From: Lysobacter dokdonensis DS-58
GTDB lineage: Bacteria > Pseudomonadota > Gammaproteobacteria > Xanthomonadales > Xanthomonadaceae
Direction: 5' to 3'
Assembly: GCF_000770795.1 (NCBI RefSeq)
Contig: NZ_JRKJ01000002.1
Location: 186,001-250,000 of the forward strand
Length of the DNA: 64,000 nt
Shown: positions 4,028 through 49,437 of the stretch, piece by piece
Layout: each line of letters begins with the position of its first letter
How positions within the stretch are numbered: the stretch's first letter is position 1
Notes under the pieces: generated by a model
Seen by the model: the letters and a program-made list of their open reading frames with translations, nothing else
Told to the model about the DNA's origin: nothing
Databases searched by the model: none
Translations under genes and position numbers: made by a program

Positions 4028-4114
4028 GCCGGAATGGCGGAATCGGTAGACGCAGCGGACTCAAAATCCGCCGCCCTTAAAAGCGTGTGGGTTCGAGTCC
4101 CACTTCCGGCACCA
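4028..4114 (+). tRNA. tRNA-Leu (CAA anticodon)
   Basis: A complete class II tRNA. The acceptor stem GCCGGAA (4028-4034) pairs with TTCCGGC (4104-4110), followed by an encoded ACCA end. The anticodon stem GCGGA/TCCGC flanks the loop CTCAAAA, giving anticodon CAA, which reads UUG. The variable arm is long and the T loop (GGTTCGAGTCC) is canonical. The 3' end borders the less GC-rich accessory region, a common integration point, but no second copy of the tRNA end was found in the window. Confidence 0.97.
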
Positions 4115-4372
4115 CCCCATGTAGGCCCCTATAAATCAGTGCATTACGGCTGATTTTAGGCGCGACCTTAGGGGAGACATTAGAGGACTTCGGCACCGTT
4201 GTGGACGGCGCAGCCGGGGGAGCCTATGGCACCCTTCGCGTCACACCCGACGCCGCCGCTGGCGCAACAACAAGCGCGATCTTTGATTGAGCCTCGGGCG
4301 TTGTCCGGGGCTTCGTCGTTTCTGGGCCAACTGCGTCTGAGTGTCCGCTTTCGGCCAAAAGCGGACAAGCGC
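4115..4372. other. Non-coding stretch directly downstream of tRNA-Leu
   Basis: No convincing gene is seen. The first 80 bases are less GC-rich than the surroundings and may be a remnant of an integrated element. I found no integrase and no direct repeat of the tRNA 3' end, so a genomic-island call rests only on position and composition. The stretch ends in the first TGTCCGC palindrome and the 3' end of the next minus-strand gene. Confidence 0.4.
4342..4367. repeat. TGTCCGCTTT palindromic repeat, copy 1
   Basis: A perfect 10-bp stem TGTCCGCTTT/AAAGCGGACA with the loop CGGCCA. Two related copies lie at 4763-4790 and 5352-5385. It sits 5 bp past the 3' end of the minus-strand gene 4373-4717 and could serve as an end structure for its transcript, although no T-tract follows. 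Confidence 0.8.
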
Positions 4373-4717
4373 TCAGCGATGGGACTCTTTGCCGACGACT
4401 TGATACACCGGCCCGCCCAGGGGTCTTTGCGCCTTAAGTAGCAACACCCTGTCTCCTTCCGAAAGGGGCCCACCGGAAACGACATGGGCAAGGACAAGGG
4501 TGCCGTCCGCCAAGCGAACTGCAGCCTCCTCGCGTGTCCCGCCCTGAATCTTCGCGACCGAAATGCTTCCGGTGGACTCGACGACGCCTACCAGCCGCCG
4601 CGGCTCCGAGCCAGACCAACGAAAAAGCAGGAACACGCCGACAATCAGAACCGCGGCCAGTATGCCAACGGCGATGCGGGATCTCGGCTCCTCGACGTCT
4701 GCAAACCTGTCAGTCAT
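4373..4717 (-). CDS. Hypothetical single-pass membrane protein
   Basis: A 114-residue protein with one transmembrane segment at about residues 16-33 (AVGILAAVLIVGVFLLFRW). A small, probably extracytoplasmic beta domain follows (RRLVGVVESTGSISVAKIQGG...VRLADGTLVLAHV), resembling a short barrel-sandwich fold, but I cannot assign a family. It is flanked on both sides by copies of the TGTCCGC palindrome. There is no evident operon partner. Confidence 0.6.
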   Translation of the reverse strand: MTDRFADVEEPRSRIAVGILAAVLIVGVFLLFRWSGSEPRRLVGVVESTGSISVAKIQGGTREEAAVRLADGTLVLAHVVSGGPLSEGDRVLLLKAQRPLGGPVYQVVGKESHR

Positions 4718-4762
4718 GGGTGTCAGCGCTTGGATGAAATCGGGTGAGAGCGGTCATCGCCG

Positions 4763-4790
4763 ATGTCCGCTTTCGGCCAGAAGCGGACAT
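4763..4790. repeat. TGTCCGCTTT palindromic repeat, copy 2
   Basis: A perfect 10-bp stem ATGTCCGCTT/AAGCGGACAT with the loop TCGGCCAG. It shares the core TGTCCGCTTTCGGCC with copy 1 and differs in loop and flank. It lies between two minus-strand hypothetical genes. Confidence 0.8.
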
Positions 4791-4821
4791 TTCCGACTTG
4801 ATTCACAGTCACGACAGCGCG

Positions 4822-5295
4822 TTACTTCTTAGCGGCGCACATCAGCAAAGCTTGGACGTTCTCCCAAGTACGCACAAACGCTTGAGCCTCATCAGAGGGA
4901 CTATTGTCGTCCGAGGAATACCAAGACGACGTAAGAACGTCATCTCCCTGTCGAACAATCAGCCGCTTGGATGGGCCATCAAAGGCGATGGCCCGACCTT
5001 GGTCGACCGTCATAGGTAACGTACTCAAGAGTTGCCGCGAAGCTTCAACCGCTCGCTCTGAATCGATCTTCGAGAGCTTGCACCGCGTCTCCACCCAGAG
5101 ATAAGGCTTCTTAGAGACGTCGTAGCGCTCCTCGACGATCTTGCCGTTTGCTTCAAGTCGCAAAGACCAAGTCTCCAACGCTGGCCCCACGATCTGATGA
5201 TCTAATTCAACCAGAGCTTTCCGGTCACTCGCGCTGACGCCGAGCGAGCATGCGAGTCCTGCCAGGGAAAGCACGAAAACACGGCAAAGGTTCAT
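4822..5295 (-). CDS. Hypothetical secreted protein
   Basis: A 157-residue protein. The start was set at ATG 5295 because it gives a clear Sec signal peptide (MNLCRVFVLSLAGLACSLGVSA). The frame is open upstream of this, but that part has no protein-like composition. The mature part contains WSLRLEANGKIVEERYD and a C-terminal DEAQAFVRTWENVQALL helix; no family is recognised. Base composition is visibly lower in GC than in neighbouring housekeeping genes, which fits acquired DNA. Confidence 0.6.
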   Translation of the reverse strand: MNLCRVFVLSLAGLACSLGVSASDRKALVELDHQIVGPALETWSLRLEANGKIVEERYDVSKKPYLWVETRCKLSKIDSERAVEASRQLLSTLPMTVDQGRAIAFDGPSKRLIVRQGDDVLTSSWYSSDDNSPSDEAQAFVRTWENVQALLMCAAKK

Positions 5296-5351
5296 TTCGG
5301 CTTGTCGATATTGGGAGCGAGGCCAATGATGAACGACCGGCCCCGCATGAG

Positions 5352-5385
5352 CCAATGTCCTCTTTGGGTCGAAAGCGAACTTTGG
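5352..5385. repeat. TGTCCGCTTT palindromic repeat, degraded copy 3
   Basis: An imperfect hairpin (11 of 14 pairs) beginning CCAATGTCC and ending ACTTTGG, with a GGGTCG loop. It matches the family core except for point changes that break the stem. It lies in the 177-bp divergent gap between the secreted hypothetical gene and the XAC0095-like gene. Confidence 0.6.
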
Positions 5386-5472
5386 CCAGGCCGGTCCGAT
5401 CGCCTGTAGTACGAAGTCACCTCGGGTCCGCCTGCACCCGCGGCGCAAGTCATTCCCGTCCGAGAGGTTGCC

Positions 5473-5781
5473 ATGACTAAAGTTGTCCGCGACGCCCGCT
5501 CCGCGCCCGCCGTCCTCTCCATCCCCGAGCCAACGCACTTCCAACTGGTGCAGATCGCCTACTTCATCCGCCTGATGGCGCACCTGACCGAAAGCGGCAC
5601 GCCCGCCAGCGTGCAGAACGCACGCCTGGCACCTGATGCCATCGGTTGGTGCTTCGCCAATCTGTCGAAGGAGATGGATGCGGTGATGAGTACGATCCAG
5701 TTCGCTTCTTCCGCGCCGACAGACAATACCGTGGACCGCGCTGCCAGTCGCCCGAAGCAGCAACGCGCTTGCGCAAATTGA
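5473..5781 (+). CDS. XAC0095-family small protein
   Basis: A 102-residue soluble protein. The core LSIPEPTHFQLVQIAYFIRLMAHLTESGTP followed by PDAIGWCFANLSKEMDAV resembles the XAC0095-like small proteins of Xanthomonadaceae, whose function is unknown. The start is supported by a GAGAGG ribosome-binding site. The C-terminal 25 residues look unstructured. It is transcribed away from both neighbouring minus-strand blocks. Confidence 0.6.
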   Translation: MTKVVRDARSAPAVLSIPEPTHFQLVQIAYFIRLMAHLTESGTPASVQNARLAPDAIGWCFANLSKEMDAVMSTIQFASSAPTDNTVDRAASRPKQQRACAN

Positions 5782-5839
5782 ATGCGATGCGGCCGTCGGC
5801 AACGGCGACCATCGGGCGCCGTTGCCTTCGCGTCTCGCG

Positions 5840-6028
5840 CTAAGCGGCATCGTCTTCAGGCGGCGACGAGTCCTTTGCGCGCACCCATCGCTTGGCACCG
5901 GCGCTCGCAAGTCCTGCGACGATCGCGAGGCACCAAATGAATGCCGAATCAGACACCAGCAGTTTGAGGGGAAATGAGGCGATCACGATCGCCGTTCCCA
6001 CGACAAGCGCCTGAAGTAGCTCTTTCAT
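5840..6028 (-). CDS. Small two-helix membrane protein, possible bacteriocin immunity protein
   Basis: A 62-residue protein with two predicted membrane helices (LLQALVVGTAIVIASFPLKLL and AFIWCLAIVAGLASAGA) and a charged C-terminal tail (KRWVRAKDSSPPEDD). It lies 58 bp downstream of the double-glycine peptide gene on the same strand. Small hydrophobic proteins in that position are often self-immunity proteins. That assignment is inference from size and position; there is no diagnostic motif, and the Shine-Dalgarno is weak. Confidence 0.5.
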   Translation of the reverse strand: MKELLQALVVGTAIVIASFPLKLLVSDSAFIWCLAIVAGLASAGAKRWVRAKDSSPPEDDAA

Positions 6029-6086
6029 GGTGTGTCACCCATTCGAAGAGCTCCGAGAGGCCCAGCGCCCGCTCGGAACCGGAAAT

Positions 6087-6308
6087 TCAGAGCGCAAATG
6101 CAGCGTGGTTGAGGCTGCCGAATGCGTCCCCGACCCAACCGTTCCAGTTGTTTGCAAAGTACGCCCCGCCGATGCATCCAAGCGCCCCACCCCACGCACC
6201 GCCCAAGCTGACGCCGATTGCCCCACCAAATGCGCAGCCGATCGTTTCCCCGGAGACTCCCGCGCCTCCATGCACTTGGGACACCTCGATAGCTTTCAGC
6301 TCCCTCAT
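6087..6308 (-). CDS. Putative class II bacteriocin precursor with double-glycine leader
   Basis: A 73-residue precursor. The leader MRELKAIEVSQVHGG fits the double-glycine consensus at every key position counted from the cut site: Leu-12, Glu-8, Val-7, Val-4, Gly-2 and Gly-1. The 58-residue mature peptide is Gly/Ala-rich, has GxxxG-type spacing (GGAIGVSLGG, GGALGCIGG), two Cys, and an aromatic, Asn-rich end (YFANNWNGWVG), as in pore-forming two-peptide or cerein-like bacteriocins. AGGAG sits 7 nt before ATG 6308; an in-frame ATG one codon earlier is too close to it. No C39-type exporter is in the window. Confidence 0.75.
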   Translation of the reverse strand: MRELKAIEVSQVHGGAGVSGETIGCAFGGAIGVSLGGAWGGALGCIGGAYFANNWNGWVGDAFGSLNHAAFAL

Positions 6309-6536
6309 CATTTTCTCCTGAGAAGTCGTAATCGAGACCGGCGAACGCACCACTGTCCGGTTATGGCAGCAACAGAGCAAGGAAGCCACAAGCGGCCTTG
6401 GACGTGCGTATGGAAGGGTCCAAGCGTTTCGAGCGAAGTGGCGCTCAAGGCTGCATGCATCTTCCGCGTACGCACTGCGATGACGCCTCTATCCGAATGA
6501 CAACGTGATCGCCCGTGTATCCGCGCGCCTGGTGCT

Positions 6537-7205
6537 TCAAGGCGGCGACGCTCCCCGCCCCTTCACCTGCTTCTGCTTCCCAAGCTGCATGAGCTTCTGA
6601 GGCCCGCCTCGCCCGCAATCGGGCACGGACTTCCCACTCGCCGCGTCGATGCCGTTGAGGCACGCGACGACCATCCAGCTTGCGTTCTTGCCCTTGTGCA
6701 ACGCCGCAGTGTGGATGCCGCCCTGGACCTTCGGCAACGACATCGTCTTGTTCACTTCCAGCGGCGGCGATGCACCGATCGGTGGCGGCGGGCGCTTGAC
6801 GCACCAGTCTTCGGATTTGTACCAGCAGCTCATCGTTTGTGCGTGCTCGTTCGCGGCCAAGCACTCTGATTGACCGCCCGGGAGTTGCGGCGGAACGTGG
6901 CAATCGTCCTGTGTCGAGCAAGCCTCGTGCGGCCCACCGAAGTCCGTCATCAGACACGCGCCGCCATACCCTTCCGAGGGAATGCCGATGTGGTGCGCAC
7001 CAACGTCGTACCCGGCGATCAACTTGAACGAGCCGGTGACGATGCCGGCTTGATCCACTACGTCGCCTGGTTCGACGACCAGGGATTTTGGGGGCTCTTG
7101 TCCCGAGGCCACGCAACCCAGCAACAGCGTCGCACCCAGCACGAAGCTACTCGCACGGTGGCGTGGACTCAGCAGCCCGATCGACGACGCTATGCGCGCG
7201 TGCAT
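6537..7205 (-). CDS. Cys-rich hypothetical lipoprotein
   Basis: A 222-residue protein starting at ATG 7205, chosen because AGGAGG lies 8 nt upstream and the N-terminus then forms a lipoprotein signal with lipobox LLLGC. Later Cys residues come in close groups (GGACLMTDFGG, ACSTQDDC, SECLAAN, SCWYKSEDWC), suggesting disulfide bonds in the envelope. A proline stretch (RPPPPIG) and a basic C-terminus follow. No family is recognised. It is divergent from the phospholipase D-like gene, 215 bp away; whether the two are functionally paired is unknown. Confidence 0.65.
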   Translation of the reverse strand: MHARIASSIGLLSPRHRASSFVLGATLLLGCVASGQEPPKSLVVEPGDVVDQAGIVTGSFKLIAGYDVGAHHIGIPSEGYGGACLMTDFGGPHEACSTQDDCHVPPQLPGGQSECLAANEHAQTMSCWYKSEDWCVKRPPPPIGASPPLEVNKTMSLPKVQGGIHTAALHKGKNASWMVVACLNGIDAASGKSVPDCGRGGPQKLMQLGKQKQVKGRGASPP

Positions 7206-7420
7206 GGCAACGCCCTCCTCGCCGACAATTCGACAGAGAGAACGAACGCGGGGCATGTCTGCTTCCGGAAGACCGTTGGTCGGTACGCATGGTTCGAACG
7301 ACGTGCACGACATTCGCTTTGTCTCCTTCCGGTAGCCGCCGGACAAGCGGCTGTCCGCCTCGGCGCAAGTGCGGCGTTGCAGCGTGTGTCATCCGGCACT
7401 CCGCCGGCAGGAGACACCCC

Positions 7421-9070
7421 ATGCGCGTCCTCAAGCGCAACGACGACGACTCGTTCCGCGTCAAAGCCTACGCGGGCACCAACGGTGTGTTGCTGGCGTT
7501 CGACATCACGAAGAAGCCCGCGAAGGATTTCCTCGGCTTCGCCATCCAGAAGAAGGAAACCGGTGGCGATTGGCAGTGGATGTTCAACGGACTGACGTTC
7601 CCGGGCCGCGCGCATACCCGGCCCGAGTGGAGGGCGACGGAGTCGAACCTGGCGCCGATCCAGAAGTTCCGTTGGGCCGATTACTCCATCGAGCCCGGCA
7701 CGACGTGCACGTATCGCGTGCACCCGGTGCACGGCAGTCCGGATTTCATCGAACTGCACGATCCGCTGAGCGTGAAGCTCACCACCGACGACGGGCACCC
7801 GAAGAATCATCGGGTGATCTTCAACCGCGCGGTCGCAGCGAGCCAGGGCTTCGAGAATCGCTTCAAGGAATGGAACAAGGAACTGACCAAGAAGAAGTCG
7901 ATCCCGATCGAAGATTGGCCCGAGGAGCCGCGCAACTGGCTGCAGCATGGGTTGCTGGATCGGATCCTGGCGTTCATCGCGCGCGCCAAGGATGAGACGT
8001 GGGCGCTCGACGTGGCGATCTACGAGTACGAGCTCAAGGCCATCGTCGATGCGGTGAAGCAGGCGCACCAGCGCGGCGTCAACGTGCGCGTGATCTATCA
8101 CGCCAAGGCCAACGACGAGCAGACCGAACAGAACGAGAAGAGCCTCAAGGGCTTGCCGAAGGCGTGCAAGCGGGGGCGGATCACGTCGAAGATCTTCCAC
8201 AACAAGTTCATCGTGCTGAGCAAGCTGTCCGCGTCGTCGGGGGCGCGCAAGCCGAAGGCGGTACTGTGCGGCAGCACCAACTTCACCGAGAACGGCGTCT
8301 ATCGGCAGGCCAATGTCGTGCACGTGGCCGAGGACACGGAGGCGGCATCGAAGTACCTCGGGTTGTTCGAGCAGGTCTGGAGCAGCCCGGCGGATGTGCC
8401 GGCGGCACGGAAGTGGATTTCGGAAAACAACCTGATCGACGAGGACGCCGCGCTCTATTGCGGCTTCTCACCGCGCAAGGGCGGCGCCGACCTGGCGGAG
8501 TTCGTGCGCACGATCAACGGCGCGCAGACGGACTTGCTGTTCGCCACCGCGTTCAAGCTGCCGGAGAGCATCCTCGACGCGCTGCTCGGCGGCGACAACG
8601 ACCCCATCCTGCGCTACGGCTTGCAGAACACCGCCAGCCGCATCACCGGCTACCACGCCGATCGCACGGCGGAATTCACCACGCCCGCCCTGCTCTCCAA
8701 GGGCCTCGAAGGCTGGGTGAAGGAAGGCCTGAAGGGGCAGCGCGGCAACTTGCTGGTGCACACCAAGGCCGTCGTCGTGGACTTCACCACCGACCACCCG
8801 GTGATCATCAGCGGCAGCCACAACCTCAGCAAACCCGCCAGCGAAAGCAACGACGAGAACTTCCTGATCATCCGCGGCGATACCGACCTGGCGGACCGCT
8901 ACGGCATCGAGATCCTGCGCTTCTACGAGCACTACCGGTTTCGCTATTACGCGAAGCTGCTGAAGCTGAAAGAGGTGCGGCCGCTGGCCGAGGACAATAG
9001 CTGGGCGGATGCGTATTACAAGAAGGGCACGCTCAAGCACGCCAGCAGGTTGCGGTATGCGGGGCGCTAA
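7421..9070 (+). CDS. Phospholipase D-like domain protein
   Basis: A 549-residue protein with two HKD catalytic halves. The first is His260-x-Lys262 (FHNKFIVLS...CGSTNFTENG) and the second His447-x-Lys449 (VHTKAVVVD...ISGSHNLSKPAS). An N-terminal beta domain (about 1-130) precedes them. Family members hydrolyse phosphodiesters in lipid or DNA; the substrate here is not evident. There is no signal peptide or membrane segment, so the protein is cytoplasmic or exported by a specialised system. The start at 7421 follows CAGGAG. The stop overlaps the convergent gene by 4 bp. Confidence 0.8.
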   Translation: MRVLKRNDDDSFRVKAYAGTNGVLLAFDITKKPAKDFLGFAIQKKETGGDWQWMFNGLTFPGRAHTRPEWRATESNLAPIQKFRWADYSIEPGTTCTYRVHPVHGSPDFIELHDPLSVKLTTDDGHPKNHRVIFNRAVAASQGFENRFKEWNKELTKKKSIPIEDWPEEPRNWLQHGLLDRILAFIARAKDETWALDVAIYEYELKAIVDAVKQAHQRGVNVRVIYHAKANDEQTEQNEKSLKGLPKACKRGRITSKIFHNKFIVLSKLSASSGARKPKAVLCGSTNFTENGVYRQANVVHVAEDTEAASKYLGLFEQVWSSPADVPAARKWISENNLIDEDAALYCGFSPRKGGADLAEFVRTINGAQTDLLFATAFKLPESILDALLGGDNDPILRYGLQNTASRITGYHADRTAEFTTPALLSKGLEGWVKEGLKGQRGNLLVHTKAVVVDFTTDHPVIISGSHNLSKPASESNDENFLIIRGDTDLADRYGIEILRFYEHYRFRYYAKLLKLKEVRPLAEDNSWADAYYKKGTLKHASRLRYAGR

Positions 9071-9366
9071 GTTTCGCCGAAGTGTGCCTGGAACAATTGC
9101 AACTCACGCTCGATCAAAGCCTCGAGTTCCACCTCATCACCGCGAAACGTCATTTCGAAATCGGAGGTGAGCCGCGAAGTGACGGAAAGCTTCAACCGAG
9201 ACGGCAGATTGGGCGCGTTGGCCACCACGCGAAAGATTCTGTTCGACGCCGGCCCGCCGGTGGCGGGCCCAAGGAAGAAGGACCAACCGTCGGGATTGGT
9301 CCGTCGTTCGGAAGTCAGCTGCGGGTAGCGGCGGGAAATGAACGCATGGACTGCATCAGGTGTCAT
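9067..9366 (-). CDS. Hypothetical protein
   Basis: A 99-residue soluble protein starting MTPDAVHAFISRRYPQLTSE, with a mixed alpha/beta pattern (GWSFFLGPATGGP, FEMTFRGDEVELEALIERELQLF). No family is recognised. It is the third gene of a minus-strand run (lipoprotein, zinc-ribbon membrane protein, this gene) with gaps of 17 and 28 bp. Its end overlaps the convergent phospholipase D-like gene by 4 bp. Confidence 0.55.
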   Translation of the reverse strand: MTPDAVHAFISRRYPQLTSERRTNPDGWSFFLGPATGGPASNRIFRVVANAPNLPSRLKLSVTSRLTSDFEMTFRGDEVELEALIERELQLFQAHFGET

Positions 9367-9394
9367 TTCCCGATTCCTTCTGCTTGACCTTCCG

Positions 9395-9667
9395 TTACTT
9401 GCGAACCACGGGCACGACGAACACCAACGCCAACGCAACCGCGACCATCATCCCCACCATCCCAATCTGCGCGACCTGCCGCGACGGATTGGCGACCATC
9501 AGGAAGCCGAAATACGAAGCCGCGGCGACGGCGGCCACCACGACCGACCATTGCGAGATGCCCCAGTGCTTGCGGCACGACGGGCAGCGGTGTTCGAAGA
9601 TGGGCCCGAGGAACAGCTTCTTGATCGGGCTGATGGTGCGTTCGTTGCAGTGCGGGCAATTGAGCAT
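9395..9667 (-). CDS. Zinc-ribbon membrane protein
   Basis: A 90-residue protein. Two CxxC knuckles at the N-terminus (CPHC, then CPSC about 25 residues later) form a likely zinc ribbon. Two transmembrane helices follow (WSVVVAAVAAASYFGFLMVA and IGMVGMMVAVALALVFVVPVV). Similar small proteins are common in Xanthomonadaceae, with no known role. It lies 17 bp after the lipoprotein gene and 28 bp before the hypothetical gene, so cotranscription is likely. Confidence 0.65.
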   Translation of the reverse strand: MLNCPHCNERTISPIKKLFLGPIFEHRCPSCRKHWGISQWSVVVAAVAAASYFGFLMVANPSRQVAQIGMVGMMVAVALALVFVVPVVRK

Positions 9668-9684
9668 GGCGATCCCTTTCTCCC

Positions 9685-10113
9685 TTATTCCAGAACCGAG
9701 CGGCTGGTGCTGACGACCTTGCCGGTGGATTTGTCGATCACGAACGCACCCCAGGCCTTGCCTGGTACGTCGAAGCCGGCGTCGATCAGGTAGCGCTTCC
9801 CTGCCTCCGCGTTGAACACGACTTCCACGGGTTTCTCGGCGATCAGCGACGTTGCGGCGTCGACGCGCACGCCGCCGGTCAGGCGGATGGCGTGTTCGCC
9901 CGGCGTCAGGACGTATTCCTTGAAGAGGCCGATGCCACGGCGTTTGCCGTCGACGTGCGAGATGACGAAGTGGCTCGCCTCGGGGTGCTCGTGTTCCAGC
10001 ACCGCGACCTCCGCCGGCGGAAGCGACTTGGTGCCGGCCCCCGTGTAAGCGCCACCGCCGCAACCTGCGAGCAGCGCCAGCACGGATGCGAGCGCCATGA
10101 GCCGAAGTTTCAT
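9685..10113 (-). CDS. Hypothetical lipoprotein
   Basis: A 142-residue protein. The lipoprotein signal MKLRLMALASVLALLAGC (lipobox LAGC) fixes the start at 10113, preceded by GGGGA at a suitable distance. The mature domain is beta-rich (EVAVLEHEHPEASHFVISHVDGK, VLTPGEHAIRLTGGV, KRYLIDAGFD, GAFVIDKSTGKVV). This resembles small envelope proteins with a PEGA-like 'tight sandwich' feel, but I would not assign it. It is first gene of a three-gene minus-strand run. Confidence 0.65.
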   Translation of the reverse strand: MKLRLMALASVLALLAGCGGGAYTGAGTKSLPPAEVAVLEHEHPEASHFVISHVDGKRRGIGLFKEYVLTPGEHAIRLTGGVRVDAATSLIAEKPVEVVFNAEAGKRYLIDAGFDVPGKAWGAFVIDKSTGKVVSTSRSVLE

Positions 10114-10267
10114 TGATTCATTCCCCGGGCGCCGTCCCCATGCGGGCCCGCCGGGAAGCATAACGCCACGGAAGGACAAGCGGCTGATGAACCCCGTCGC
10201 GACGCCGTGACAAGGCACGCACCGCGCCATCCGCATACTGTGCGCTGCCCTGCCCCAGATTCGCCCC

Positions 10268-13027
10268 ATGACCCCCGACACCAACCTGCGCTTCCTCGAC
10301 GCCCCCGGCGAGGTCGCAGCCCTCATGCGCTCCCACGATTGGTCCGGTTCGCCGCTGGGGGCGCCGGAGTCTTGGCCGCAGTCGCTCCGCAGCGTGGTGA
10401 GCCTGATGCTGCGGTCGAAGTTCCCGATGTTCGTCGCCTGGGGGCCGTCGATGGGCTTCCTCTACAACGATCCGTACGTCGAGGTCCTCGGGGCGAAGCA
10501 TCCGTTCGCGCTGGGGTTGCCGTTCGAGGAGATCTGGTCGGAGATCTGGGAGGACGTCGGCCCGTTGGCGCGTCGTGCGTTGGCCGGTGAGGCGACTTAC
10601 ATGGAGAACCTGCCGCTGCTCATGCGGCGCAAGGGCTACGACGAGCCGACCTGGTTCACTTTCTCCTATTCGCCGGTCACCGATGAACAGGGCGACATCG
10701 CCGGCATGTATTGCGCGTGCACGGAGACTACGGCGGGCGTGATCGCCGAGCGCACGCGCATTGCGCAGATGCAGCGGCTGATTTCGTTGTTCGAACAGGC
10801 GCCGGGCTTCGTGGCGGTCACGCTGGGGCGCGAGCATATCTACGAGATCGCGAATCCCGCCTACCTGGAGTTCGTCGGGCGGCAGCACATCGTCGGGCTG
10901 TCGGTGCGCGCCGCGCTGCCGGAGCTCGACCAGAAGTTCATCGACATTCTCACGCAGGTGTACGACACGGGCGTGCCGTACATCGGCAATCGCATCCCCG
11001 TCGGCCTGGTGCGCGGGAACGATGGCGAAATGACCGACCGTATTGTCGACTTCGTGTTCCAGCCGATCGTCGACGATCACGGCCGCGTCGATGGCATCTT
11101 CATCCAGGGCACCGACATCACCAACCAGGCCACGGCCGAACGCCTGGTGGAAACCGAGCGCCTGCGCCTGGAAGCGGTCATCGACTCCCTCCCCTCCGGC
11201 GTCGCGCTCGCCAACAACGAGGGCGACATCATTCGCGTGAACGCCGCCAATCGCGAGATCTGGGGCATGCATCCGACGTCTGGCGATGTCGCCGCATATG
11301 GCGAGCGCCAGGGCTGGTGGGCGGAGGATTCGACGCGTCGCGGCCAACAAGTGGCACCCGACGATTGGGCGCTGTCGCGCGCCTTGCGTGGGGAAGTCGT
11401 GCGCGGCGACATCGTCGAGATCCAACCGTTCGACGATCACCCCCGGCGCACGTTGCTGCTGCAGGCCACGCCGGTGCGTCTGGCCGATGGCGAACTCGCA
11501 GGCGCCGTTGTTGCGCAGACCGACATCAGCGACCGAGTGCGCGCCGAAGCCGATCTGCGTGCGAGCGAGGCGCGCTTCCGTTCCATCACCGACGCGATGC
11601 CGCAGATGGTGTGGTCGGCGTTGCCCGACGGGTTCAACGATTACTACAACCGCCAGTGGTACGAGTTCACCGGGCTGATCCCGGGCGAAGGCGAAGGCCA
11701 GCGTTGGGCGGAAGTCGTGCATCCGGACGACCGCGTGCGTGCATGGGCGCGCTGGGGCCGCAGCCTGGACTCCGGCGAGGATTACGAAATCCAGATGCGC
11801 CTGCACCACCACTCCGGCGACTTCCGCTGGGTGCTGGTGCGCGCCGTGCCCGTGCGCGGCGACGATGGCGGCATCTTGCGCTGGCTCGGCACGGCGACGG
11901 ACATCCACGAACACCGGATCGCGCAGGATGCATTGGAGCGCAGCGAACGCGCGTTGCGCGACGCGGACCAGCGCAAGGACGAATTCCTCGCGATGCTCGC
12001 GCACGAATTGCGCAATCCGCTCGCGCCGATCAGCACTGCGTCGCAGTTGCTCAAGCTCTCGTCCGATCCGGTGCGCATCCGCGCGGCCGGCGATGTGATC
12101 GGGCGGCAGGTGCGGCACATGACGGAGTTGGTCGACGATTTGCTCGACGTCTCGCGCGTCACGCGCGGCCTCGTGCATCTCGATCTGGAAACCGTCGACT
12201 TCAAGGCGATCGTCATCAGCGCGATCGAACAGGTCCGACCGCTCATCGATGCGCGCGGCCACGCTCTCCGCACGCGATTGCCCGCGCGCGCCCTCTGGGT
12301 GCACGGCGACCGTACGCGCCTCACACAGATCCTCGCGAACTTGTTGAACAACGCCGCGAAGTACACGCCCGAGGGCGGCGAGATCCACCTCGACGCGGAA
12401 AGCGACGACGGCCACGTGCGCGTGCGCATCCGCGATAACGGGCAAGGCATCGAACCGGCGCTGCTGCCGCGCATCTTCGACCTGTTCACGCAGGCCGACC
12501 GCTCGCCGGATCGCACGCAGGGCGGGCTCGGCATCGGATTGGCGTTGGTGCGCAGCCTGGTCGCGCTGCACGGCGGCACGATCACTGCCGACAGCCATGG
12601 CCGCGACCAGGGCGCGGTTTTCACCATCTGCCTGCCGCGCGTGGAGGCCCCGCCTGTCGCCGAGGACACGCACGCGCATCGCATCGACGGGGCCGGCGCC
12701 ACGCTCGATGTCGTGGTCGTCGACGACAACGTCGATGCCGCGCAAACGTTGCAGGTACTGCTGGAAGCACTCGGCCATCGCGCGCGCGTGTTCCATCGCG
12801 CCGGGGATGCGTTGAACGCCATCATCGAATCACCGCCGCAGGTCGCGTTCCTCGATATCGGGCTGCCCGACATCACCGGCCACGAACTCGCACGCGAGAT
12901 CCGCCAGCGCCTCGGCGCGCGCGCGGGCGTGCTCGCGGCGTTGTCGGGTTACGGGCAACCGCAGGACCACGCGGCCTCGCGGGAAGCAGGGCTCGACTTC
13001 CATCTCGTCAAGCCGTGGCGATGTTGA
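10268..13027 (+). CDS. Hybrid PAS sensor histidine kinase with C-terminal receiver (end frameshifted)
   Basis: A 919-residue cytoplasmic hybrid kinase with three or four PAS/PAC-type sensory regions over about 1-555, then the H-box FLAMLAHELRNPLAP (His579), an HATPase domain with N-box (LLNNAAKY) and G-boxes (DNGQGI, GGLGIGLALV), and a receiver domain with phospho-acceptor Asp863 (FLDIGLP). It probably relays phosphate from an unknown soluble cue to a separate regulator. The frame ends HLVKPWRC. One missing base near 13015 would restore HLVKPV plus AMLMEVLARAGSPGG and move the stop to 13063-13065, exactly abutting the convergent gene. This is a mutation or a sequence error. Confidence 0.88.
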   Translation: MTPDTNLRFLDAPGEVAALMRSHDWSGSPLGAPESWPQSLRSVVSLMLRSKFPMFVAWGPSMGFLYNDPYVEVLGAKHPFALGLPFEEIWSEIWEDVGPLARRALAGEATYMENLPLLMRRKGYDEPTWFTFSYSPVTDEQGDIAGMYCACTETTAGVIAERTRIAQMQRLISLFEQAPGFVAVTLGREHIYEIANPAYLEFVGRQHIVGLSVRAALPELDQKFIDILTQVYDTGVPYIGNRIPVGLVRGNDGEMTDRIVDFVFQPIVDDHGRVDGIFIQGTDITNQATAERLVETERLRLEAVIDSLPSGVALANNEGDIIRVNAANREIWGMHPTSGDVAAYGERQGWWAEDSTRRGQQVAPDDWALSRALRGEVVRGDIVEIQPFDDHPRRTLLLQATPVRLADGELAGAVVAQTDISDRVRAEADLRASEARFRSITDAMPQMVWSALPDGFNDYYNRQWYEFTGLIPGEGEGQRWAEVVHPDDRVRAWARWGRSLDSGEDYEIQMRLHHHSGDFRWVLVRAVPVRGDDGGILRWLGTATDIHEHRIAQDALERSERALRDADQRKDEFLAMLAHELRNPLAPISTASQLLKLSSDPVRIRAAGDVIGRQVRHMTELVDDLLDVSRVTRGLVHLDLETVDFKAIVISAIEQVRPLIDARGHALRTRLPARALWVHGDRTRLTQILANLLNNAAKYTPEGGEIHLDAESDDGHVRVRIRDNGQGIEPALLPRIFDLFTQADRSPDRTQGGLGIGLALVRSLVALHGGTITADSHGRDQGAVFTICLPRVEAPPVAEDTHAHRIDGAGATLDVVVVDDNVDAAQTLQVLLEALGHRARVFHRAGDALNAIIESPPQVAFLDIGLPDITGHELAREIRQRLGARAGVLAALSGYGQPQDHAASREAGLDFHLVKPWRC

Positions 13028-13065
13028 TGGAAGTGTTGGCGCGGGCGGGTTCGCCGGGCGGTTGA

Positions 13066-13641
13066 TCAACCGCCGCGCGGCAACACCGTCAGCACGCGCT
13101 TCACGAACTGCGCGTACTCGGACAGGTAGTTGCGCAGGAATTCCGCGGTGTCGTCGTTGCTGACGACGCCTTCGTCGTCGATCAGGCCGGGCTTGAACTG
13201 GATGTACGCCTCCACGGTGTTCATCAGCGGCGAGTTGCAGAAGCACAGCACGCCGCGCAGTTGCTGCTGCGCCACCGCGGTGCCGATGGCGCCGGGCGAG
13301 GTGCCGATCAGGCCCGATGGCTTGCGCGCGAAGGAGTTCTGCCCCCACGGGCGGCTCGCCCAGTCGATCGCGTTCTTCAATGCGCCCGGGATCGACCGGT
13401 TGTATTCGGGCGTGACGAACAGGATGGCGTCGACGTCGGCGATGGATTGCTTGAACTTGCGCGCGACCTCGGGGTAGTCCGCGTCGTAGTCGTAGCTGTA
13501 GAGCGGCAGGTCGCCGATGGGGATCTCGCGCATCTCGAGTTCGGGCGGCGCGAGTTTCACGAGCGCCTTCGCCAGCTTGCGGTTGATCGAGGCCTTCGCG
13601 AGGCTACCGATGAGGTAGCCGACGGTGTACGTGGTGGTCAT
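13066..13641 (-). CDS. NADPH-dependent FMN reductase
   Basis: A 191-residue flavodoxin-like reductase. The motifs GSLAKASINRKLAKAL (phosphate loop, about 12-27) and TPEYNRSIPGALKNAIDW (about 77-94) are hallmarks of the ChrR/azoreductase-type quinone or chromate reductase family. It transfers electrons from NAD(P)H through FMN to quinones or other acceptors in the cytoplasm. GGAGG precedes the ATG by 5 nt. It is transcribed toward the histidine kinase gene. Confidence 0.87.
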   Translation of the reverse strand: MTTTYTVGYLIGSLAKASINRKLAKALVKLAPPELEMREIPIGDLPLYSYDYDADYPEVARKFKQSIADVDAILFVTPEYNRSIPGALKNAIDWASRPWGQNSFARKPSGLIGTSPGAIGTAVAQQQLRGVLCFCNSPLMNTVEAYIQFKPGLIDDEGVVSNDDTAEFLRNYLSEYAQFVKRVLTVLPRGG

Positions 13642-13713
13642 CTGCGCCTCCGGATTCTGCGAAGGCGCAGTGATGCACGATGCGCGGTTACCGGAACGTC
13701 ATGGCGCCTGTGC

Positions 13714-14196
13714 TCAGAGCCCCGCCACGGCGCGGTCGATGGTGGCGATGTCGATCTTGCGCATGTCCATCATCACTGCGAACGCACGCTGCGCTTTCTC
13801 GCCGCCTTCGTGCATCAGGTCGGTCAGGCGGCGCGGCGTGATCTGCCACGACAGGCCGAACCGGTCCTTGCACCAGCCGCACGCACTCTCCTGGCCGCCG
13901 TTGTCCACGATCGCGTTCCAGTAGCGGTCGGTCTCCGCCTGGTCGTCGGTGGCGACCTGGAAACTCACCGCTTCGTCGAACTTGAACTGCGGCCCGCCGT
14001 TCAACAGCAGGAACGGCATCTTGAAGATCGTCAGTTCGACGATCAGCACGTCGCCCTGCTTGCCGTCCGGATAGTCGCCCGGCGCCCGGCCGATGCTGAT
14101 GATCTTCGAGTCGGGGAACGTGTCGGCGTAGAACCGCGCGGCTTCTTCGCCGTTCTTGTCGAACCACAGGCACGGCTGGATCTTGGGGGCAGTCAT
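13714..14196 (-). CDS. VOC-family (PhnB-like) protein
   Basis: A 160-residue protein of the glyoxalase/VOC fold, PhnB/3-demethylubiquinone-methyltransferase-like subfamily. The opening QPCLWFDKNGEEAARFYADTFPDSKI, then LNGGPQFKFDEAVSFQV and CGWCKDRFGLSWQI, are typical of this subfamily. The reaction is unknown. The start at 14196 is decided by AGGAGG 4 nt upstream. It lies 72 bp upstream of the FMN reductase gene on the same strand. Confidence 0.82.
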   Translation of the reverse strand: MTAPKIQPCLWFDKNGEEAARFYADTFPDSKIISIGRAPGDYPDGKQGDVLIVELTIFKMPFLLLNGGPQFKFDEAVSFQVATDDQAETDRYWNAIVDNGGQESACGWCKDRFGLSWQITPRRLTDLMHEGGEKAQRAFAVMMDMRKIDIATIDRAVAGL

Positions 14197-14369
14197 GCGA
14201 CCTCCTGCGTGGGCGGAACGTCGGACCGTACTCCGCGCGGCGGCGCCGGGGGTCAAAAATGCGTTAGGCCGGGCACGCGATTGGCCCCTTCGGCGCCGGA
14301 TTCGGAAGGGACTTGTACGATGCGCTCCCCACGCGCAGCATGCGTCGATCCGATCCGAGGAGCACGTCC

Positions 14370-43534: not shown

Positions 43535-44702
43535 GCTTCCGATCGTCAACCGCGTCGTGCTCGGCACGCTGGCGCTTGCCGCGATTCTTCCGATCGCCCT
43601 GTCCGCCTGTTCGAGCGAAGCCGCCCCCGCGGCCCCGCCGCCGCCGGAAGTCAGCGTGGCCACGGTGCTGAGCAAGGACGTCGCGCAGTGGGATGAGTTC
43701 ACCGGCCGCGTGCAGGCCGTGGAAACCGTCGACCTGCGCCCGCGCGTCAGCGGCTACGTGGAGCGCGTGGCGTACCACGAAGGCCAGGACGTCAGGAAAG
43801 GCGATCTGCTGTTCGTGATCGATCCGCGCCCGTATCGCGCCGCGCTCGACCAGGCACTGGCCAATCTCGAAAAGGCCCGCGCCGAACAATTGCTCGCGCA
43901 AACGCAGGACCGCCGTGCGCAGACGCTGATCGACGCGAAGGCCATCTCGCGCGAAGAGTTCGAGATCCGCAAGGCTGCGTCGTCGCAGGGCAACGCCGGC
44001 GTGCGCGCCGCCGAAGCCGCGGTCGCCGCCGCGCGCCTCGATCTGCAGTTCACCGAGGTGCGTTCGCCGATCGATGGCCGCGCCGGCCGTGCGCTGGTCA
44101 CCGAGGGCAACCTCGCGCAGACCGACGCCACGCTGCTCACCACGCTCGTCTCGCAAGACCCGATGTACATCTACTTCGAGAGCGACGAGCAGGCGTTCCT
44201 GCGTTACGCGGCGCTCGCGCGCAAGGGCGAGCGCGACGGCGTGCGCAACCCCGTCCGCATCGGCCTGGCCGACGAAGACGGCTATCCGCACGACGGCACG
44301 GTCGACTTCATCGACAACCAGGTCGATGCGCAGACCGGCACCATCCGCGCGCGCGCCGTGGTGGCCAATCCCGACCGCGTGTTCACGCCCGGTCTGTTCG
44401 CGCGCGTGCAGTTGAAGGGCACCGGCAGGTTCAAGGCGATGCTGGTCGACGACAAGGCCGTGCTCACCGACCAGGATCGCAAGTACGTCTACGTGCTCGG
44501 CCCGAACAACACGGCGGCGCGCAAGGACATCGTGCCCGGCCCGATGATCGACGGCCTGCGCGTGGTGCGCTCGGGCCTGGCGCCCACCGACAAGGTGATC
44601 GTGCACGGCGTGCAGAAGGTGTTCATGCCTGGCATGCCGGTCTCGCCGAAGGCGATCGTGATGGGCGCGGCGCCTGCGGGCGAAAAAGTCGCGATGAAGT
44701 AA
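43512..44702 (+). CDS. RND efflux periplasmic adaptor (membrane fusion lipoprotein)
   Basis: A 396-residue AcrA/MexA-type adaptor. The lipoprotein signal ends in LSAC. The order is a barrel-sandwich half (VDLRPRVSGYVERVAYHEGQDVRKGDLLFVIDP), an alpha hairpin (about 105-170), then the second half-motif (TEVRSPIDGRAGRALVTEGNLA) and beta-barrel and membrane-proximal domains. It couples the inner-membrane pump to the outer-membrane channel. The start at 43512 lies within the end of the preceding gene. Confidence 0.93.
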   Translation: MTRQPADKLPIVNRVVLGTLALAAILPIALSACSSEAAPAAPPPPEVSVATVLSKDVAQWDEFTGRVQAVETVDLRPRVSGYVERVAYHEGQDVRKGDLLFVIDPRPYRAALDQALANLEKARAEQLLAQTQDRRAQTLIDAKAISREEFEIRKAASSQGNAGVRAAEAAVAAARLDLQFTEVRSPIDGRAGRALVTEGNLAQTDATLLTTLVSQDPMYIYFESDEQAFLRYAALARKGERDGVRNPVRIGLADEDGYPHDGTVDFIDNQVDAQTGTIRARAVVANPDRVFTPGLFARVQLKGTGRFKAMLVDDKAVLTDQDRKYVYVLGPNNTAARKDIVPGPMIDGLRVVRSGLAPTDKVIVHGVQKVFMPGMPVSPKAIVMGAAPAGEKVAMK

Positions 44703-47973: not shown

Positions 47974-49437
47974 ATGACCTCGCTCCAATTCCACCCGCGG
48001 CGCGCCACGCGCCTTGCGATGACCGTGCTGTCGACCGCGCTGCTCGCGGCATGCGCGGTCGGCCCGGATTACGTCAAACCCACCGCGGTCGAACCGGCGA
48101 CGTTTGCGCGCACCGACGCGACCGCGGTGGCCGCTCCCGCCGACGATGCGTTCTGGGAACGCTTCAACGATCCGCAATTGACCGCGCTCGTCGAGGAAGC
48201 CCTGTCGGCCAACCATGACTTGCGCATCGCGCTCTCGCGTTACGACCAGGCCAATGCCTTGTTGCGCGACGCGCGGTTCGACCAGGTCCCGACGATCACC
48301 GCGCAGGGCAACGCGAGCCGTTCGCGCCTGAGCGCGGACCAGGCGCCGGGCGTGTCGCGCGATGCACGCGATGGCGTGGAGTCGTACGACGTCGGTGTCG
48401 TGGCGGGCTGGGAGCTCGACCTGTGGGGCCGCGTGCGGCGCAACGTCGAAGCCAATCGCGCGGGCGTGGAAGCCAGCGCGAACGACCTGGCGGCGATGCA
48501 GGTCGCGATCGTCGGCGATGTCGCGCGCAGTTATTTCGAGTTGCGCGGATTGCAGGAACGCCTGCGCGTCGCGCGCGACAACGCGGCCAACCAGGACGGC
48601 ACGCTGCGCATCGTGCAGGCGCGCTTCGATGCGGGGCGCGGCACCGAGTTCGATACCTCGCGGGCGCGGGCGCAACTGGAAAGCACCCGCGCCATCGTGC
48701 CGCAGCTCGAGGCGCAGGTCGCCTTCGCCGAACATCGCATCGCGGTGTTGACGGGGCATGTGCCCGAAGCGCTGATCGCGCAGCTCGACAAGCCCGTCGC
48801 GCTGCCGGCGTTGCCCGAACAGATCGACGCCGGCACGCCGGGTGATCTCGTGCGTCGTCGCCCCGACGTCGCCGCGGCGGAGCAGCGCCTGCATGCCTCC
48901 ACCGCACGCGTCGGCGTGGCGACGGCGGATCTGTTTCCGCGCTTCACGCTCGGCGGGCTGATCGGAAGCCAGTCCATCGACGCGGGCAACTTGTTCGAAC
49001 GCGACAGCGAGACGCGCGTGGTGGCGCTGGGCATCGACTGGTCGTTCCTCGACGTCGGCCGCGTGCGCGCCCGCATCGCGGCAGCGGATGCCAATGCGGA
49101 AGGCGAACTGGCGCGTTATCGGCAGACGGTGTTGCTCGCGTTGGAAGACACCGAGAACGCACTGATCCGCCAGAACCGTGCGCGCGTGGAAGACCGGCAT
49201 CGCGAGCAGGCGGCGCTCGACAGTGCGAACGCGGCCCGATTGGCGCGCGTGCGTTACGAAGCCGGCGCGGTGGACTTGTTCGAAGTGCTGGATGCCGAGC
49301 GCGCTCAGCTGCAGGCGCAGGATGCGTTCGCCGATGCGAGGACGCGCAGCGCGGTCAGCGTGGTCGCGCTGTACCGCGCACTGGCCGGCGGATGGCCGGG
49401 GCAGATGCCGATGCGGGAGAAGATTGCGCGGGAGTGA
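47974..49437 (+). CDS. Outer-membrane efflux channel (OprM/NodT family lipoprotein)
   Basis: A 487-residue TolC-like channel. Lipobox LLAAC precedes AVGPDYVKP, the NodT-family N-terminus. Two repeated helical halves each carry the conserved turn (SYDVGVVAGWELDLWGRVRRNVE and ALGIDWSFLDVGRVRARIAAA). RPDVAAAEQRLHASTARVGVATADLFPRF is another family block. It completes the tripartite pump, 22 bp downstream of the RND gene. Confidence 0.94.
   Translation: MTSLQFHPRRATRLAMTVLSTALLAACAVGPDYVKPTAVEPATFARTDATAVAAPADDAFWERFNDPQLTALVEEALSANHDLRIALSRYDQANALLRDARFDQVPTITAQGNASRSRLSADQAPGVSRDARDGVESYDVGVVAGWELDLWGRVRRNVEANRAGVEASANDLAAMQVAIVGDVARSYFELRGLQERLRVARDNAANQDGTLRIVQARFDAGRGTEFDTSRARAQLESTRAIVPQLEAQVAFAEHRIAVLTGHVPEALIAQLDKPVALPALPEQIDAGTPGDLVRRRPDVAAAEQRLHASTARVGVATADLFPRFTLGGLIGSQSIDAGNLFERDSETRVVALGIDWSFLDVGRVRARIAAADANAEGELARYRQTVLLALEDTENALIRQNRARVEDRHREQAALDSANAARLARVRYEAGAVDLFEVLDAERAQLQAQDAFADARTRSAVSVVALYRALAGGWPGQMPMREKIARE

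Follow-up and report, generated by a model that had tools for sequence, protein, structure and literature searches.

We found a pair of small genes in Lysobacter dokdonensis DS-58 that, judging from sequence comparisons, is probably a bacteriocin cassette without an exporter of its own, similar to class IIa microcins or Cdz, and that would consist of a double-glycine peptide and a small immunity protein, with the peptide exported in trans. The pair lies in the 64-kb stretch of DNA that we analysed (the window), which corresponds to positions 186001-250000 of contig C12 in a 3.27-Mb genome. A sequence-only reading had proposed a peptide plus immunity cassette at this place, and that proposal gains support from C39 exporters in the same genome, from a cut site retained in all six full-length copies of the peptide, from a gene row in another genus that joins the peptide to an exporter, and from the accessory status of the locus. 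In the searches made, the peptide family was found only in Lysobacteraceae, and it is missed at cut-off by both Pfam and NCBIfam.

The peptide gene and its partner

The precursor gene (6087..6308, minus strand) is defined by its open reading frame and its homologues. It runs from an ATG at 6308 to a stop at 6087 and encodes 73 amino acids; an alternative ATG at 6311 would add one methionine (74 residues). We chose 6308 as the start because an AGGAG ribosome-binding site (6315..6319, minus strand) lies six nucleotides upstream of it, which agrees with the earlier description of a 73-residue precursor with AGGAG just before its ATG. The first 15 residues form a double-glycine leader, MRELKAIEVSQVHGG (6264..6308, minus strand), that contains every consensus residue previously assigned to it (Leu-12, Glu-8, Val-7, Val-4 and Gly-2/-1). 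A scan for double-glycine leader peptides that combined leader type, start codon, a Shine-Dalgarno-like motif and a length of 35-150 residues found one such peptide in the window, whereas 30 first-order Markov copies contained 0.03 on average; the motif was written after the peptide was known.

The mature peptide of 58 residues (6090..6263, minus strand) is a glycine zipper with cysteines at positions 10 and 30 of the mature sequence. It had been characterized as Gly/Ala-rich with GxxxG spacing and two cysteines, and we counted 16 Gly, 11 Ala, two Cys and nine GxxxG motifs; letter shuffles contain 3.9 such motifs on average and reach nine in 0.16% of 20000 cases. The zipper includes a stretch of 39 residues without P, D, E, K or R, and by eye the peptide ends in ...GSLNHAAFAL. 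An AlphaFold model of the peptide is of poor overall quality (mean pLDDT 57; 70, 78 and 73 as block averages across residues 21-50) and shows helices at 20-36 and 38-59 arranged as a weak hairpin. On this model a membrane hairpin is the most likely form of the zipper core, and a structure-similarity search with it returned no significant matches. No sigma-70-like promoter was found in the region 5600-6900, and the one terminator-like site there is at chance level and falls inside the partner gene.

Fifty-eight nucleotides separate the peptide gene from a second gene on the same strand (5840..6028, minus strand), which encodes a membrane protein of 62 residues and is a candidate immunity gene on the grounds of its hydrophobic segments, its structure model and its position in homologous loci. 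The protein has two hydrophobic segments and modelled helices at residues 2-24 and 27-53 (mean pLDDT 72), as expected from its earlier description as a two-helix protein that follows the peptide. At all six full-length peptide loci, a membrane protein of 58-63 residues is encoded after the peptide gene, where the value for one of the two places in G145 (contig C254) depends on an inner start picked by us (61 residues; the longest frame has 81). Two or more hydrophobic segments are present in 6/6, 5/6 and 4/6 of these partners at thresholds of 1.0, 1.2 and 1.5, compared to 196, 134 and 76 of 6000 random positions at the same thresholds; one partner at 1.2 and two at 1.5 thus fail as two-segment proteins. 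Size and helices are alike among the partners, and the identity of the window partner to those at the five other loci is 18-29%, so homology among them is weak. In the Stenotrophomonas-related copies the partner evolves faster than the peptide, with dN of 0.54-0.82 (dS 1.14-2.67; one pair among the six gave no estimate) versus 0.18-0.36. A closer relative of the window partner, with 64 residues and 41% identity (E 1.2e-7), is encoded in genome G169 (L049, 9416-9610). We found no double-glycine leader peptide around this gene and no C39 match of at least 100 bits in that genome, and it may be a stray immunity gene.

Relatives of the peptide in other genomes

Among 395 Lysobacteraceae genomes searched, including its own, full-length relatives of the peptide occur at five further places in four other genomes. 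Three of these (G047, G119 and G145, the last with two places) belong to one genus and the fourth (G380) belongs to another. The relatives kept from this single-sequence search have E-values of 9.6e-9 or better; at E 0.01 there were matches in 31 of the 395 genomes, and the weaker loci inspected were L010 and L015. No full-length match was found in four other genomes of the same genus as the window. Within its own genome, the only other match of the peptide is a 62-residue peptide at a C39 locus on C10, at 144-148 kb (E 0.058). A scan of named genomes matched 14 stretches, of which four were confirmed: one in Stenotrophomonas panacihumi, one in Stenotrophomonas sp. HITSZ_GD, and two places in a Lysobacteraceae metagenome assembly.

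The other copies are 44-52% identical to the window peptide. In an alignment of all six, the L, E, V and first G of the leader are invariant, as are 19 positions of the mature part including both cysteines; the conserved features are GVSxETxGC, most of the zipper glycines, and the second cysteine. Homologues without a double-glycine cut site had been named beforehand as evidence against the bacteriocin reading. All six full-length copies keep such a site (GG in three and GA in three), and both cysteines are likewise present in 6/6. The four Stenotrophomonas-related copies, from three genomes, show dN of 0.18-0.36 versus dS of 0.99-1.95, with dS near saturation. These four also have in common a C-terminal tail, GPFGGxPAGxRAW, that is absent from the window peptide, which is ten residues shorter and could therefore be decayed or retargeted. 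The tail of the peptide in G380 is different from both, however, and so tails appear to vary within the family.

A profile built from the six full-length copies, whose E-values for those copies follow by construction, matched 17 places in 15 of the 395 genomes, with six places in five genomes being full length. We inspected eight of the 11 weaker places, that is, all except L080-L082. Five of them (L074, L075, L078, L079 and L085) encode a peptide whose leader ends in GG or GA, the leader at L076 ends in SG, and no leader peptide was seen on inspection of L077 and L083. In the six loci with a leader peptide, it is of the glycine-zipper type and a small hydrophobic frame (52-113 residues) comes after it, an arrangement that may be common in Lysobacteraceae. 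Of 369 genomes of the class besides its own, the profile matched eight, all of them weakly and from model position 13 or later, so that most of the leader is missing.

Two of the Stenotrophomonas-related loci also carry a serine recombinase gene (Resolvase and Recombinase domains) together with two RepB/ParB-type genes (L045, 5909-9287; L047, 5582-8954). Third-position GC in these regions is below that of most neighbours. The cassettes at L045 and L047 adjoin the recombinase gene, which fits mobility, and the recombinase region is possibly a mobile element.

Association with C39 exporters

The strongest link of the peptide family to C39 export is a gene row in G380 (L044). Here, genes for the peptide, a membrane protein of 60 residues, a C39-ABC exporter of 703 residues and an HlyD protein of 421 residues are arranged in one direction with short gaps or overlaps, and the peptide and partner are therefore tied to a C39 exporter.

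In the window itself, a search for C39 and HlyD covering 10 kb to either side of the cassette found neither gene. The sequence-only reading had argued that the exporter must be encoded elsewhere, and would have been contradicted by a genome lacking C39; exporters of this type are indeed present on other contigs, with C39 matches on C10 and C14 and the cassette on C12. An intact C39-ABC exporter of 702 residues at C10:98326 shares 58% identity with the G380 exporter and is encoded next to an HlyD protein (C39 124.1 bits, both ABC domains present; HlyD_3 65.8 bits). Upstream of it is a 47-residue peptide with the leader VRELSESELEQVNGG, which scores 21.8 of the 27.1 bits needed for Bacteriocin_IIc. 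In a second system, at C10:144-148 kb, the C39-ABC gene is split into frames of 465 and 275 residues and is followed by HlyD. The latter region (L005, 6053-10262) is itself a microcin-type locus with two double-glycine glycine-zipper peptides of 62 and 58 residues, and a similar peptide pair occurs with a hydrophobic frame of 66 residues at L074 in G411.

C39 matches of at least 100 bits are present in 5/5 carriers of the peptide, the window genome included, versus 7/35 other genomes (Fisher p 0.0012). The comparison covers 40 genomes picked by handle and counts as a non-carrier any genome without a full-length match. Because the bit cut-off was set after the list had been seen and three of the carriers are from one genus, we take this association as support rather than proof.

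The only HlyD match on C12 is a weak one to HlyD_3 at 44058-44393 of the window, approximately 38 kb from the cassette. A frame for an outer-membrane channel of the OEP family is located at 48181-49383, which places the two about 38-43 kb from the cassette; together they are perhaps an efflux set. OEP-family domains (PF02321) score over cut-off 12 times in the genome, several of them in one frame.

Genomic context

The cassette lies in an accessory stretch (4115..14358, no strand) whose left edge is a tRNA-Leu (CAA) gene at 4028..4114 on the plus strand. DNA up to the tRNA is matched in 5/5 genomes of the genus, its own included. Synteny with G001, a genome of the same genus, ends at 4114 and resumes at 14359, and synteny with G004 ends at 4116 and resumes at 14368; for G002 and G003, no right-hand match was found within the 13-14 kb of sequence compared. 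We conclude from this break at the tRNA and the return of synteny some 10 kb on that the cassette is accessory, as had been suggested from its location behind tRNA-Leu. The GC content of 4115-7300 is 0.610 versus 0.669 for the whole window, and that of the cassette is 0.612, a value undercut by 2.7% of same-sized stretches of the window. A search of the window for a repeat of the tRNA end found none.

Several other elements occur in this stretch. A 26-bp palindrome, TGTCCGCTTTCGGCCANNAGCGGACA, is found at 4342-4367 and 4764-4789. It has 15 matches with at most two mismatches in the genome when both strands are counted (one place being counted twice), ten of them at C12:410-434 kb, and a backward control has none. 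A PLD-like protein (PF13091, 86.8 bits) is encoded at 7421-9070, and a hybrid PAS/histidine kinase/response-regulator gene is located at 10268-13027 on the other strand, approximately 4 kb from the cassette.

Proposed function and alternatives

In the mechanism that we favour, the C39 domain of an ABC exporter encoded elsewhere, most likely the intact one at C10:98326, would recognize the 73-residue precursor and cut it after Gly-Gly. The 58-residue glycine-zipper peptide would then leave the cell via an ABC/HlyD/outer-membrane channel and insert into the inner membrane of related bacteria as a helical hairpin packed through GxxxG, perhaps held by a Cys10-Cys30 disulfide, while the 62-residue membrane protein would protect the producer. 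The names bacteriocin and immunity protein are assigned here by inference from sequence features. The family is a compact candidate for study, in that the gene row of G380 joins peptide to exporter and orphan cassettes predict export in trans.

The evidence for a toxin has to be weighed against other readings of the same genes. Double-glycine leaders and C39 exporters are linked to peptide signals as well as to bacteriocins, a link that also appears in the title of reference 31 of PMC9746304, so the secreted peptide might be a signal that is exported and cut by the same exporter and sensed by other cells, with the membrane protein taking part in sensing or export; the hybrid PAS/histidine kinase/receiver gene of the accessory stretch (10268-13027) could be counted in favour of such a role. 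However, the two genes have no regulator gene between them or immediately next to them, and what constantly accompanies the peptide, in 6/6 loci, is a membrane protein with some 60 residues. The mature part, as a glycine-zipper membrane peptide, is a better fit to a toxin, and the partner-like gene of G169 occurs apart from any leader peptide or C39 match of at least 100 bits, as a stray immunity gene would. We consider a signal unlikely. Slightly more credible, although still improbable, is a decayed cassette in which the peptide has lost its C-terminal tail and its activity and only immunity is kept. The orphan location and the ten residues and tail consensus by which the window peptide falls short of the four Stenotrophomonas-related copies count in favour of such decay. 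On the other hand, the frame, ribosome-binding site, leader, cut site, both cysteines and zipper are all intact, and the divergent tail of G380 points to tails that vary in the family. Short genes are prone to be spurious in a GC-rich genome with many chance frames, yet the conservation of this pair across genera, its constant gene order, its place in a row with an exporter, and the clear excess of dS over dN among the Stenotrophomonas-related copies make chance open reading frames a very remote explanation.

A bacteriocin cassette exported in trans could also act in a narrower way that overlaps with our preferred reading, with the peptide staying on the producer surface and killing by contact, as Cdz does, instead of diffusing as a microcin. 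The peptide shows three of four Cdz-like sequence features, and the Cdz system as portrayed in excerpts of PMC5380434 likewise includes a small membrane protein for immunity. Against this stands the distance of the window cassette from C39 and HlyD genes, none of which was found within 10 kb of it. As to a charged or polar C-terminal tail, the window peptide has one Asp and one His there, and the Stenotrophomonas-related tails carry Arg. Contact killing is thus a possibility to which we give limited credence. We are equally tentative about a broader proposal, that the peptide and immunity genes form a mobile cassette that has become separated from its exporter and uses resident C39 exporters in trans. 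In this proposal the zipper core, with its two Cys 20 residues apart, would be fixed, and the target would be set by C-terminal tails that can be exchanged. If this is true, cassette and exporter are separate modules in Lysobacteraceae.

Comparison with known systems

In a comparison to bacteriocin HMMs, a check advised in the sequence-only reading, the MccV model matched at 17.2 of 27 bits, and none reaches its cut-off. No Pfam model does so, the matches being MccV (PF17508), Rick_17kDa_Anti, a glycine zipper 2TM domain (14.1 of 24.2 bits), and C19orf12 (8 of 30 bits); Bacteriocin_IIc (PF10439) is absent among the Pfam matches of the window peptide. Nor does any NCBIfam model, where two unrelated rows score 9.5 and 8.5 bits. 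The G380 relative is also below the cut-offs, at 21.4 of 27 bits for MccV and 20.7 of 27.1 for Bacteriocin_IIc. Membership in either family was rejected on these curated cut-offs. Among the literature matches listed, titles and the opening parts of abstracts contain no description of this peptide family in Lysobacter or Stenotrophomonas. Given the scores below cut-off and this lack of a description, we call it a new family.

In the parts of the literature drawn on here, only 10 class II microcins were experimentally validated as of 2022, most of them from Escherichia coli (PMC9746304). A C39 exporter recognizes and cuts the leader of these peptides, the rest of the channel is made up of an HlyD-type protein and TolC, and the producer is guarded by a small immunity protein that is usually located at the inner membrane (PMC9746304, PMC13174018, PMC10233263, each in part). 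The window peptide resembles class IIa microcins as outlined in these excerpts, of which microcin V is an example (CvaC, Cvi, CvaA, CvaB and TolC): it is a precursor below 10 kDa, with 73 residues and a leader of 15 residues ending in GG (15-20 residues ending in GG, GA or GS are typical), a C39-ABC exporter (PCAT) and HlyD are encoded in the genome at C10:98326, and a small membrane-helix protein is encoded beside the peptide, its 62 residues falling inside the 51-216 residues given for immunity proteins in the part of PMC10233263 consulted. In contrast to microcin V, the window peptide gene precedes its partner, whereas cvaC is downstream of cvi in the excerpt of PMC13174018; the exporter is away from the cassette, and the mature sequence is different, as the MccV score indicates. 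Assignment to class IIb was rejected, since the window peptide has no C-terminal Gly/Ser repeats, which the same excerpt links to siderophore attachment. Microcin E492 (MceA, bound to ManYZ) was likewise rejected: its structure match is not significant, seven of ten other chains score higher, and the window peptide lacks a Gly/Ser C-terminal tail.

Cdz-like proteins are delimited, in the excerpt of PMC5380434, by a length of 60-151 residues, a leader ending in G[G/A/S], a glycine zipper uninterrupted by Pro or charge, and a charged or polar C-terminal tail, and the same excerpt names Xylella XF_0262 as one of them. The window peptide has the first three of these four features (73 residues, GG, and an uninterrupted stretch of 39 residues), and its tail has one Asp and one His. 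For a type I exporter within about 10 kb, a further Cdz-like feature, our search for C39 and HlyD found none in the window and one in G380. The cassette is like Caulobacter CdzC/CdzD and CdzI in length, leader, zipper, a small membrane protein as putative immunity partner, and predicted type I export. It is unlike them in having a single peptide, a partner with two helices where three are predicted for CdzI, and neither C39 nor HlyD among the genes up to 10 kb away; the two cysteines of the peptide may be a further difference. The colicin V-like microcins of Xylella fastidiosa, also of the Lysobacteraceae, are similar by description in combining MccV-like peptides with an immunity gene (PMC11885251 and PMC10233263, in part), and differ in having three tandem peptide genes with cvi upstream. 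Microcin candidates are reported from Xanthomonas as well (PMC13174018, in part). On the strength of searches that covered Pfam, NCBIfam and the literature matches listed, we regard the window peptide as a member of a new family of a known kind. In our judgement it is closer in character to the class IIa microcins of Gram-negative bacteria and to Cdz-like glycine-zipper proteins than to the class II bacteriocins of Gram-positive bacteria.
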